Part shown: piece by piece, positions 10,205-16,574 of the stretch
How the letters are laid out: every line of letters begins with the position of its first letter
Position numbering within the stretch: the first letter of the stretch is position 1
NCBI GenBank assembly: GCA_003820645.1
Contig: RPOR01000011.1
Coordinates: 1 to 52,207, forward strand
Reading direction: 5' to 3'
DNA length: 52,207 bases
From: Betaproteobacteria bacterium
GTDB lineage: Bacteria > Pseudomonadota > Gammaproteobacteria > Burkholderiales > SG8-41
The notes under the pieces: generated by a model
Seen by the model: the letters and a program-made list of their open reading frames with translations, nothing else
Databases searched by the model: none
What the model was told of the DNA's origin: nothing
Program-made: the position numbers and the translations under genes

Positions 10205-13093
10205 TCAGCCGCATGCCCCCGTGTAGCCACAGGCCGTGCAGTAATCGCAGCCGTCCTTGCGGATCAGGGTCTGGTTGCCGCACTCGGGGCAGCGGCTGCC
10301 TTTCATCACGCGGGGCGATTCATTGCTGCCCGCCGGCGTCTCGAGTATGCCCATTTGCGTCAGCGGCGCGCCGTTCTCGTCGAGGACGCCGAGCATCGCG
10401 TAGCGGTGCAGGATCAGCCGCGCGACGTAGGCAACGGTGGAGGGAAACGTCGCCTGTTTGCGGGTGCCGGGCACGAAGGCCATGAAATCGCCCAGCGGCT
10501 CGGGGAATTCGAGCAGCTTCTGCAGCTTCATGCCGATCCACGCCGGATCCATCACACGCATGTCGAGCGACAGGATCTTGCACAGCCCGTCGAGTGCACG
10601 CGGATATTCACCGGACAGCCACATCGAGTAGGGGCGCGTAACGCCGGCGTTCTTGCCGTTCCCGGGCAACGTGATTTCCTTGAGTCCCAGCACGAAATCG
10701 TCGCCGGTGCGCGGGTTAAGTACATCGACCGTCCACGACATCGTGCCGTCGGTGCCGGTCTTCGGTTCCTTCAGCGAGAACATCGCATCGAGCACGGGCG
10801 TCAGCGACTGGCCGAACAGCGGTGCACCCGGCTGCGTCAAGCCACCGAGCTGGTCGACGCGCCAGCGCACGACCTGGGCGAAGGCGGCGACCACCGAGGG
10901 CATGCGCTTCACTTCACCGAGCGGCGGGAAGGCCATGTCGAACGGCTCATCGCCGCCGGCCTTGGCCAGCGTATCGAGCTTCACCTGCAGCCAGCCGGGA
11001 TCGCTCGCCCGCATGTCCATCGACAGTGTCTTGGCGACGGCGCCGAGGCCCCGCGGTTGTTCGCTGCCGTTGACCCAGACTTCAAAGGCGTGTTTGTGGT
11101 CGTTCTCGACATGGCCGACGAACACCGCGAATGCGCCATGCGGGTGTTCGATCATGTAGGTCCATGCCGGATTGCCCGCGGTCATCGCCGGGCGGCCCGG
11201 CCAGCGCAGGCTGGAGAGCACCGGCGCCGGCAGGTTCTGGATCAGGATGCGGCGGTTGACGTCGTCGCTGCGGAAATCCTGCGGCGCCTTGTCTTTGTCG
11301 GACGGTTCCACCGACAGGACCGAGCCGAGCACGCTGTTGGGACGATAGGTGGCAAGTCCTTTCAGCCCCGACTTCCAGGCGCGGAAATACAGATCCTGGA
11401 ATTCGCCGTAAGGATAGTCTTCCGGCACGTTCACGGTCTTCGAGATGCTGGTGTCGATGTAGGGGGCGACGGCGGCGACCATTTCTTCGTGGGCGGTTGC
11501 CGAAATTTCGAGTGCGGTGACGAACCACGGCGGCAGTTGCGCGGTATTGCCGCCCAGAGCACGCCAGCGCCGCCAGGCATGGTCCTCGACGGCGAATTCG
11601 CGCATGGTGTTGTCGGGCATGCGCTTCTTGCGGGTGTAGGTCCAGGAGAACGGCGGCTCGATGCCGTTGGAGGCGTTGTCGGCAAAGGCGAGGCTGATGG
11701 TGCCGGTGGGCGCGATCGACAGCAGGTGGCTGTTGCGGATGCCCTGTTTGCGGATCGACTGCTTGATGTCGTCCGGCAGCCGCGCGGCAAAGCTGGTGCC
11801 CGACAGATAGAGATCAGCGCTGAACAGCGGAAACGCACCGCGCTCGCGGGCGAGGTCGGCGGAAGCACGGTAGGCATAATCGCGCATGGCCGCGGAAATC
11901 TGCGCGGCGACCTGCCGCGCCTCCGGTGTGTCGTAGCGCTGGCGCAGCATGATCAGCGCATCACCCAGTCCGGTGAAACCGAGGCCGACGCGCCGCTTGG
12001 CGGCGGCTTCTTCCTGCTGTTGTTTCAGCGGCCAGGCGGTGACGTCGAGCACGTTGTCGAGCATGCGCACGGCGACGGCGACGACACGGCCGAAATGCTC
12101 GTAATCAAAGCTCGCGTTTTCAGCAAACGGCTGCTTGACAAAATGGGTGAGGTCAATCGAGCCCAGGCAGCAGCAGCCGTACGGCGGCAGCGGCTGTTCG
12201 GCGCAGGGGTTGGTGGCCTCGATGGTTTCGCAGTAATTGAGGTTGTTGTCACGATTGATGCGGTCGAGAAACAGGATGCCCGGCTCGGCGTGGTCGTAGG
12301 TCGAGCGCATGATCTGTTCCCACAGCTCGCGCGCCGGCACCTTGCGGTATACCCACTGCCCGTCCTCGCGTTGCCAGGCGCCGGCGGCCATCTGGCGGGC
12401 ATTGGGCTTGGCGCGGTGCGCGAGTTCGACATCCTTGTTCTGCGCGACGGCTTCCATGAAAGCGTCGGTGACACCGACGGAGATATTGAAATTGGTCAGG
12501 TCGCCCTTGTCCTTGGCGTGGATGAATTCCTCGACGTCGGGGTGATCACAACGCAGCACGGCCATCTGGGCGCCGCGGCGAGAACCGGCGGATTCCACGG
12601 TCTCGCAGGAGCGGTCGAACACGCGCATGTACGACACCGGGCCGCTGGCGCTGGACTGCGTGCCTTTGACTTCCGCACCCTTGGGCCGGATCGAAGAAAA
12701 GTCATAGCCGACACCGCCGCCGCGGCGCATGGTCTCCGCGGCTTCCTGCAGCGCGATGTAGATGCCGGGGCGACCGTCGACGATTTCCGAAATCGAATCG
12801 CCGACCGGCTGCACGAAACAGTTGATCAGCGTCGCCTGCAGCGGGATGCCGGCGGCGGAGTTGATCCGGCCGGCGGGTATGAAGCCGTCCTCCTGCGCCT
12901 GCAGAAAGCGGCGCTCCCATTGCGCGCGCTGCTCCTCGGGTTCGGCCTGTGCCAGCGCGCGCGCCACGCGGCGGCGCACGTCGGCAATGCTGGATTCCTT
13001 GCCCTTGGCGTATTTCTCGAGCAGCGAATCGCGGCTGATTTCCTGCTCGGGCAGCGTGATCGCCGTGGGGGTGCCAAGGGCGGTGTCTTTCAT
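10205..13093 (-). CDS. nrdJ: Adenosylcobalamin-dependent (class II) ribonucleoside-diphosphate reductase
   Basis: 962 aa; [80 protein letters not shown], duplicated C-terminal TSCPD-like domains and CPECG...[14 protein letters not shown] tail. Confidence 0.93.
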
Positions 13094-13199
13094 GCGTGGA
13101 CCTTTCTGTGGTGGGGCGCGCGGGGCGCGCCCGGGTTATGCGAGAGCGATTTTGGCGTGCAGTATGCGCCCCGGCGTACCGGCTGAAAAGACTCTCGGT

Positions 13200-14247: not shown

Positions 14248-15999
14248 ATGGCCCAAAAGAAGCAAGGCGGCGTGCGCCGCAAGACCGGCATGCGCAAAGG
14301 CCTCACGGCGTACGGCGACGAAGGTTTTTCGCTGTTCCTGCGCAAGGCCTTCGTCAAGGCGATGGGCTATACCGATGACGCGCTCGACCGGCCGATCATC
14401 GGCATCACCAACACCTTCAGCGGTTTCAACGCCTGCCACCGCAACGTACCGGAACTGATCGAGGCGGTAAAACGCGGCGTGATGCTCGCCGGCGGCCTGC
14501 CGGTCGAATTCCCGGTGATCACGCTGCACGAATCGTTTGCGCACCCGACCAGCATGTATCTGCGCAACCTGATGGCGATCGACACCGAAGAGATGCTGCG
14601 CGCGCAGCCGGTCGACGCCGCGGTGCTGATCGGCGGTTGTGACAAGACGGTGCCGGCACTGCTGATGGGCGCGGCCAGTGCCAACGTGCCGTCGATCATG
14701 CTGGTCACCGGACCGATGATCACCGGCGACCACAAGGGTGAGCGGCTGGGGGCCTGCACCGACTGCCGCCGTTTCTGGGGACGTTACCGTGCTGGCGAGA
14801 TTTCCGAGCAGGAAATAGGCGAAGTGAACAACAAGCTCGCGCCGTCGGCGGGCACCTGCATGGTGATGGGCACGGCGAGCACGATGGCGCTGTGTACCGA
14901 GGCCATGGGCATGATGCTGCCCGGCGGCGCCTGCGTGCCGGCGGTGATGGCCGACCGCCTGCGCCAGGCCGAAGCGAGCGGCGCCCGCGCGGTGGCGATG
15001 GCGAAGGAACGGCTGACGCCGGACAGGATCATGACGGTGGAAGCGTTCGAGAATGCGCTGCGCGTGCTGTTCGCCATCGGTGGCTCGACCAATGCGATCG
15101 TGCATCTCGCGGCGATGGCAGGACGGCTGGGCATCAAGCTCGACTTGGACGCCTTCGATAAAATGGGCCGCGAAACCCCGGTGCTGGTCGATCTGAAGCC
15201 GACCGGGCAGGGCTACATGGAAGACCTGTACAAGGCCGGCGGCCTGGCGGTGATCCTGCGCGAACTGAAACACCAGTTGAATCTGAAAGCGCTCACGGTC
15301 ACCGGCAGTACGCTCGGCGAAGACCTTGCCGCTGCACCGCCGTCGTGGGATCAGAAAGTGGTGCGCCGCTTCAAGGACCCGGTGTTCGCCGGCGGCAGCA
15401 TCGCCGTGCTGCGCGGCAACCTCGCGCCGGGCGGTGCCATTATCAAACAGGCGGCGATGGATCCGAAACTCACGCGCCATGAAGGCCGCGCGGTCGTGTT
15501 CGAATCGCTGCAGGACCTGGCGGACCGCGTCGATGACCCGAAGCTCGACGTCGACGCCGACGACATCCTGGTGCTGAAGAACGCCGGCCCGATCGGCGCA
15601 CCGGGCATGCCGGAAGCGGGTTACCTGCCGATCCCGAAAAAACTCGCGGCGAAAGGGGTCAAGGACATGGTGCGGATTTCGGACGCGCGCATGAGCGGCA
15701 CCGCGTTCGGCGCCATCGTGCTCCATGTGACGCCGGAGTCCGCACTGGGCGGCACGCTGGGACTGGTGCAGAATGGCGACCGCATCCGGCTCGATGTGCC
15801 GGCACGCAAATTGGAACTGCTGGTCAGTGACGCCGAACTTGCCGCGCGGCGCGGGCGCCGGAAAGCACCGCAGCGGCGCAGGGATGACAGTCGCGGTTAC
15901 CGCAAGCTGTTCATGGACCAGATCACGCAGGCCGACGAGGGCTGCGATTTCTCCTTTTTGAAACCGGCAATCACCACTCAGGCTCCCCGCAAGCGATGA
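14248..15999 (+). CDS. IlvD/Edd family dehydratase (dihydroxy-acid or sugar-acid dehydratase)
   Basis: 583 aa; GITNTFSGFNACHRNVPELIEAVKRGV, AAVLIGGCDKTVPALLMGAASANVPSIMLVTGPM, GACTDCRRFW, DARMSGTAFGAIVLHVTPES. Confidence 0.9.
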   Translation: MAQKKQGGVRRKTGMRKGLTAYGDEGFSLFLRKAFVKAMGYTDDALDRPIIGITNTFSGFNACHRNVPELIEAVKRGVMLAGGLPVEFPVITLHESFAHPTSMYLRNLMAIDTEEMLRAQPVDAAVLIGGCDKTVPALLMGAASANVPSIMLVTGPMITGDHKGERLGACTDCRRFWGRYRAGEISEQEIGEVNNKLAPSAGTCMVMGTASTMALCTEAMGMMLPGGACVPAVMADRLRQAEASGARAVAMAKERLTPDRIMTVEAFENALRVLFAIGGSTNAIVHLAAMAGRLGIKLDLDAFDKMGRETPVLVDLKPTGQGYMEDLYKAGGLAVILRELKHQLNLKALTVTGSTLGEDLAAAPPSWDQKVVRRFKDPVFAGGSIAVLRGNLAPGGAIIKQAAMDPKLTRHEGRAVVFESLQDLADRVDDPKLDVDADDILVLKNAGPIGAPGMPEAGYLPIPKKLAAKGVKDMVRISDARMSGTAFGAIVLHVTPESALGGTLGLVQNGDRIRLDVPARKLELLVSDAELAARRGRRKAPQRRRDDSRGYRKLFMDQITQADEGCDFSFLKPAITTQAPRKR

Positions 16000-16574
16000 C
16001 TCAACAGAAAACCCGCAAGACAGATAAAAAATCGTTAAAAAACAAAAAGTTACAAAATAAACGCGCAACGACCAGGACCACCGCAGCGCGGCACGCTGTC
16101 GCGAGAAAAACGGCGACTGCGCAGAACGCCAAACCGCGTGTCGTCGTGCGTAATTCGCCGATTCATGGCCGAGGCGTGTTCGCGGTGAACGCGATCGCCA
16201 AAGGCGCACGCATCCTCGAATACACCGGTGAGCGCATGTCGCATGCCGAAGCCGATCGCCGTTACAGCAAACTCCACGAAGGCTCTTCGCACACCATGCT
16301 GTTTGCGGCGAACGATGAAGTGGTGATCGACGCCACCAGGCGCGGTGGCCCGGCCCGCTGGATCAACCACTCCTGTGCGCCGAACTGTGAAGCCGATGAG
16401 GAGGATGGCCGGGTGTTCATCAACGCCATCCGTGCGATCAGGCCAGGCGAGGAATTGTCCTACGACTACAACCTGGTGCTGGAGGAGCGGCACACGCCCA
16501 AGCTCAAACGCGAACATCCCTGCCATTGCGGCGCACGCCAGTGCCGCCGCACGCTGCTCGGCAGCAAGCGCTGA
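15996..16574 (+). CDS. SET domain-containing protein-lysine methyltransferase-like protein
   Basis: RNSPIHGRGVFAVNAIAKGARILEYTGE, RWINHSCAPNCEA, GEELSYDYN and a post-SET CxCx4C (CHCGARQC); K/R-rich N-terminal tail; 4-bp ATGA overlap with the IlvD gene. Confidence 0.93.
   Translation: MTQQKTRKTDKKSLKNKKLQNKRATTRTTAARHAVARKTATAQNAKPRVVVRNSPIHGRGVFAVNAIAKGARILEYTGERMSHAEADRRYSKLHEGSSHTMLFAANDEVVIDATRRGGPARWINHSCAPNCEADEEDGRVFINAIRAIRPGEELSYDYNLVLEERHTPKLKREHPCHCGARQCRRTLLGSKR

Follow-up and report, generated by a model that had tools for sequence, protein, structure and literature searches.

What does a SET-domain methyltransferase that begins with a lysine-rich, histone H1-like tail modify when it is encoded beside a metabolic gene in a bacterial genome? 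Most work on bacterial SET proteins has treated them as weapons directed at the chromatin of a host. The gene considered here lies in a contig of 52,207 nucleotides from a free-living Betaproteobacteria bacterium (RPOR01000011.1); the whole contig is referred to below as the window. We established by computation the fold, that the catalytic and zinc motifs are intact, that the tail is translated, how the family is distributed, and which genes lie nearby. The reading that we favor, in a judgement about evenly balanced between right and wrong, is that the product is an endogenous SAM-dependent lysine methyltransferase that would be tethered to nucleic acid by its tail and would act on lysine-rich nucleoid proteins, possibly including itself.

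A KMT2-like SET protein with a predicted complete active site

The SET gene (positions 15996-16574, plus strand) encodes a protein of 192 amino acids, followed by a stop codon, that matches the complete Pfam SET profile (positions 1-105 of 105; 83.3 bits against a cut-off of 22.4; E = 1.9e-23). The open reading frame, the motifs HGRGVFA, RWINHSCAPNC, GEELSYDYN, and CHCGARQC, the last of which is an exact post-SET CxCx4C, and the basic tail are all as an earlier note on this DNA had described them. The catalytic core (residues 58-159; 16167-16472, plus strand), delimited by the Pfam boundaries and invariant residues, contains both catalytic signatures, NHxCxPN (as RWINHSCAPN) and ELxYDY (as ELSYDY). 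The NHSC motif (16365-16376, plus strand), which aligns with that of MLL1/KMT2, comprises the SAM-binding N124 and H125 and the zinc-type C127, and the post-SET motif (16521-16544, plus strand) comprises C176, C178, and C183. Among the columns without variation in an alignment of 29 relatives, some of them from Chloroflexi and Acidobacteria, are N124, H125, C127, Y156, D157, Y158, C176, C178, and C183 (full-length numbering). Thus, no residue for SAM binding, catalysis, or zinc has been lost, and the KMT2-type zinc set, consisting of the NHxC cysteine C127 and the three post-SET cysteines, is complete. Y156 occupies the position called the F/Y switch in eukaryotic SET enzymes, where a tyrosine predicts mono- or dimethylation.

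A sequence search of the PDB placed KMT2D, KMT2C, KMT2A, and yeast Set1 on top (E-values from 7e-28 to 1e-23), and a profile of the whole family again found KMT2 to be nearest by sequence. KMT2/Set1 proteins were also returned by a fold search with the AlphaFold model (E = 1e-14, TM about 0.6-0.7), the mean pLDDT of which is 82; most of the core falls between 85 and 97, and the tail is modeled as a low-confidence helix (pLDDT about 60). The Pfam match, the invariant residues, and the fold match to KMT2 bear out the previous identification of a SET methyltransferase with a post-SET motif, and the prediction of a bacterial SET lysine methyltransferase with a complete active site and post-SET region is well supported. 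The protein is of a known bacterial kind of SET lysine methyltransferase, in a variant that carries the H1-like tail.

Evidence that the lysine-rich tail is translated

Residues 1-48 (15996-16139, plus strand) form a K/R-rich, H1-like tail with a net charge of about +15. Immediately upstream lies a gene for an IlvD/Edd-family sugar-acid/dihydroxy-acid dehydratase (ilvD-like; 14248-15999, plus strand), identified with Pfam and NCBIfam (PRK06131, E = 6.4e-259). The TGA stop codon of the dehydratase gene overlaps the ATG of the SET gene as ATGA (15996-15999), an arrangement indicating probable translational coupling of the two genes. In all 20 loci examined from the genus of the window (15 of them distinct), the ATGA start and the SET core share one reading frame, and this frame is kept regardless of the distance from the ATG to the core, which takes eight values among these loci. 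Third codon positions hold 77 of the 139 tail differences between close pairs, not all of which are independent. Because of the in-frame ATGA coupling and this third-position excess, the 48-amino-acid tail is evidently translated; the same two observations rule out a frame artefact or a wrongly chosen start.

The A-rich patch that had been pointed out as unusual in this GC-rich window was confirmed as AT-richness beyond what the amino acids require: the GC content of the tail is 0.49 compared to 0.60 expected from the codon usage of the neighboring genes, and 0 of 5000 simulations gave a value as low. A mere effect of lysine codons is thereby ruled out as the source of the patch. The tail uses 8 AAA versus 2 AAG codons and contains two TTA codons, against one TTA per 396 leucines in the neighboring genes. 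The start region is weakly structured (-5.1 kcal/mol, which is no weaker than in shuffled sequences of equal composition), and no clear Shine-Dalgarno sequence was seen at the SET start. Such weak structure would fit a translation-start ramp, and therefore, the extra A-richness may aid initiation.

Lysine-rich tails recur across the family

At least 8 lysines within a 25-amino-acid terminal window were found in 29% of 109 SET genes versus 0.7% of 817 other genes from the same loci, that is, lysine-rich termini are about 40-fold enriched in SET genes over their neighbors. N-terminal tails occur in the window's genus and in several others (L022, L136, and L137), C-terminal tails in L071, L101, L107, L111, and L112, and the L143 protein has a tail at both ends. 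A tail is present on 38 of the 115 bacterial cores placed in a quick tree, on which this distribution requires 23 state changes, a count that poorly resolved forks and the tail threshold may inflate. A long tail is absent in 77 of the 115 members and therefore is not essential to the function of the core.

The tail is of low complexity, with length and terminus varying between lineages. It is apparently labile in evolution, being N-terminal here, C-terminal in other lineages, and absent in most. Given that the end, length, and sequence vary while the charge recurs, the tail fits a generic cationic, H1-like nucleic-acid tether rather than a conserved H3 mimic, and lysine-rich termini at either end are as expected if charge, not a specific sequence, matters. 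The N-terminus had been called histone-tail-like; the basic tail itself stands, but its lability and low complexity make it H1-like and not similar to the tails of H3 or H4. A topoisomerase III encoded near one of the SET genes (L146:9926-10999) also ends in an H1-like tail of its own (KKTAAKKAPAKKTAARKTAVKTAA).

Distribution and origin of the family

By the family profile search, 84 of 399 complete Burkholderiales genomes, spread over 14 families and 44 genera, encode the KMT2-like form, and the family is also found in two further families of the class (f56 and f65). The general statement in the earlier note that SET methyltransferases occur sporadically in bacteria thus does not apply to this family in Burkholderiales. 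Plasmids of Paraburkholderia, Caballeronia, Burkholderia, and one Xanthomonas carry homologs for which the annotation reads "SET domain-containing protein-lysine N-methyltransferase." There was no match among 50,697 phage records, which speaks against a phage origin. In the quick tree of the 115 bacterial cores, three eukaryotic (KMT2) rows fell outside the bacterial group. The phylogeny of SET domains with post-SET homologs that had been proposed as a check accordingly sets the bacterial group apart from KMT2, albeit weakly, with three eukaryotic rows on long branches; to the same limited extent, recent transfer from eukaryotes is countered. A second SET copy in one genome (G187:C5:139060-139491) is broken by a TAG stop and is probably a pseudogene.

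Gene neighborhood of the SET genes

In the family to which the window belongs, SET often follows the dehydratase gene. Several families have SET in or near the arrangement dnaA-dnaN-gyrB-SET-topB. In genomes of 1.7-2.1 Mb (L117-L119, also L175-L177), the order is dnaA-dnaN-gyrB-SET, and gyrB is separated from SET by 4-6 bases; in L148 and L150, this order is followed by a convergent topB, and in L054-L074 and L125-L132, SET is divergent from topB. The identities of gyrB, dnaN, dnaA, and topB were confirmed with NCBIfam. Of the 76 SET genomes, 33 have topB within 20 kb of SET, a count that leaves out wrap-around in the circular genomes G396 and G417, both of which probably have topB within this distance, and 15 have it within 1 kb; by chance, roughly 1% would be expected for the 20 kb distance, which covers 40 kb in a genome of about 4 Mb.

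This neighborhood is consistent with an ancestral place of SET beside the origin and the topoisomerase genes, and does not by itself prove a functional link. The lineage of the window has apparently lost the topoisomerase neighborhood. Because SET in this lineage lies beside a metabolic dehydratase, the neighborhood link is not obligatory and may reflect an ancient ori-proximal position.

Two other observations concern the loci themselves. A DUF3717 protein, a further conserved neighbor, is encoded next to or near SET in small- and large-genome members of family f31 (L117:5627-5848 and L121:2595-2903). In the window, a 943-amino-acid frame (10355-13186, plus strand) runs opposite to the gene for ribonucleotide reductase (10205-13093, minus strand) and is a typical high-GC shadow frame, not a gene.

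Candidate substrates and proposed function

The same genome encodes a K/A-rich, H1-like protein (L163:1923-2243, on G000:C12) directly downstream of nrdB. This protein matches HC2 (3.4e-8) and NF038053 (8.7e-9), in both cases below the cut-off, and is apparently a short member. Hc1 (PF07432) had no match in this genome and was accordingly dropped as a candidate substrate. HC2-type proteins are encoded in 61 of the 84 SET genomes versus 120 of the 315 others (Fisher test, 1.7e-8, a statistic that ignores ancestry) and are also widespread in genomes without SET. This co-occurrence hints at a link but is only suggestive and, being confounded by ancestry, is not counted as proof. Lysine methylation of a nucleoid or ribosomal protein had been proposed: the nucleoid part is plausible in view of the gyrB, topB, and dnaA neighbors and the H1-like protein in the same genome, whereas for the ribosomal part, no pointer to a substrate was found in this analysis. 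Automethylation of the tail is possible by analogy with the chlamydial SET protein NUE, which is described as automethylating at a lysine pair near its C-terminus and as not methylating Hc1 in vitro, an activity reported for the Chlamydia pneumoniae homolog (PMC2904774).

From the computed features, we infer activity, tethering, substrate, and physiological role as follows. The gene product would be a KMT2-like, SAM-dependent SET protein-lysine methyltransferase, predicted to be active and to function within the bacterial cell itself. Its catalytic core would add one or two methyl groups, as the tyrosine at the F/Y switch suggests, to lysines of lysine-rich basic proteins, and the disordered H1-like tail would tether the enzyme to nucleic acid and hence to the nucleoid. 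H1-like nucleoid proteins, including the one encoded in the same genome, would be the likely substrates, possibly along with the tail itself. Through methylation, the enzyme would modulate DNA binding and the compaction or topology of the chromosome.

SET enzymes often act on non-histone substrates, and the enzyme could instead methylate a non-nucleoid protein, such as a translation factor, a ribosomal protein, gyrase or topoisomerase, or another enzyme, with the tail doing no more than promote solubility or binding to RNA or the ribosome. The adjacency to gyrB and topB could equally mark GyrB or TopB as substrates, and the tail would have affinity for RNA as well as for DNA. However, no specific non-nucleoid partner is indicated, the tests singled out no substrate, and among solved structures the nearest relatives methylate histone tails, so that we consider this alternative doubtful, if deserving of attention.

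Less probable still, and in our view unlikely, is a role as an effector that the bacterium would inject into eukaryotic cells (protists) to methylate host histones there, the tail serving as a nuclear localization signal, as in BtSET and LegAS4/RomA. The best matches by sequence and fold are indeed H3K4 methyltransferases, and the Burkholderia SET protein BtSET is secreted by a type III secretion system (T3SS) and methylates H3K4 by report (PMC7819608, PMC3980110). The LegAS4/AnkI model (NCBIfam NF043024) matches weakly and locally, with 44 bits against a cut-off of 550 and over the SET part only; Pfam detected no ankyrin repeats in the 192-amino-acid protein. Searches of the genome of the window, which is 92% complete, gave no match to the T3SS/flagellar gate HrcV/FlhA or to VirB4, which speaks against the effector reading. 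HrcV scored above the curated cut-off in only 6 of the 76 SET genomes, and 22 of the 76 had no match to either gate; furthermore, SET is apparently coupled in translation to a dehydratase here and adjoins gyrB elsewhere. Given this scarcity of T3SS in SET genomes, the effector role reported for BtSET is not the general function of the family.

Methylation of a small molecule, as by BurB of Burkholderia thailandensis, which converts methionine to S-methylmethionine and proves such action possible for a bacterial SET fold (PMC12542666), is highly improbable here even though the neighboring dehydratase is metabolic, given that BurB was outside the best 60 PDB matches of the window protein and of the family profile despite being in the library, that the window protein is KMT2-like throughout, post-SET included, and that relatives of its gene sit in unrelated neighborhoods. 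A second, divergent SET protein of the same genome (L002:1459-1953; G000:C44:10539-10922; 164 amino acids) matches BurB at 4.8e-8 and KMT2C at 1e-11. Because, among the best hits, BurB matches this second protein and not the window protein, a BurB-like role of the latter is unlikely.

The favored reading, an endogenous methyltransferase of lysine-rich nucleoid proteins, can be extended, tentatively, to a native chromatin modification in many Burkholderiales. A KMT2-like SET protein, ancestrally encoded in dnaA-dnaN-gyrB-SET-topB and having repeatedly acquired H1-like tails at either end, would methylate H1-like nucleoid proteins and itself and so tune chromosome compaction; under this view, BtSET would be a conserved enzyme with a housekeeping role, its activity on host histones being secondary. 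The family occurs in a fifth of the complete Burkholderiales genomes, including small ones of free-living bacteria without detectable T3SS, and its genes often lie beside gyrB or topB. With this distribution, these neighbors, and its recurrent H1-like tails, the family makes an internal methylation mark on H1-like proteins directly testable in bacteria. It also comes with a warning, namely, that the roles as effectors reported for SET proteins of Burkholderia may differ from their ancestral function.

Comparison with known systems

The window protein shares with KMT2/MLL and yeast Set1 (COMPASS) the SET core, the NHSC and YDY motifs, and the post-SET CxCx4C. Unlike these enzymes, it is a small bacterial protein that stands alone, lacking COMPASS partners, in a cell with no histone H3. 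The link to KMT2/COMPASS is one of resemblance, not membership.

BtSET, a SET protein from the same order, is likely orthologous to the window protein, with which it was compared by description. The mono- and dimethylation of H3K4 reported for BtSET (PMC3980110, PMC7819608) is compatible with the tyrosine switch of the window protein. BtSET is, however, described as a T3SS effector, a LegAS4-like nucleomodulin, whereas the genome of the window has no detectable T3SS. The chlamydial proteins NUE and cpnSET, also compared by description, are bacterial SET methyltransferases too, but are T3SS-secreted effectors of intracellular pathogens, for which the consulted parts of the source describe no long H1-like tail and present the action on the H1-like Hc1 as debated (PMC2904774). 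BurB has the bacterial SET fold and comes from Burkholderiales, as does the window protein, but acts on methionine and is not a close sequence match. Finally, the H1-like proteins of Burkholderiales (HC2, PF07382; NF038053) share the composition of the tail, with repeated K, A, T, and P, but have no catalytic domain, and are candidate substrates of the SET protein rather than its relatives.
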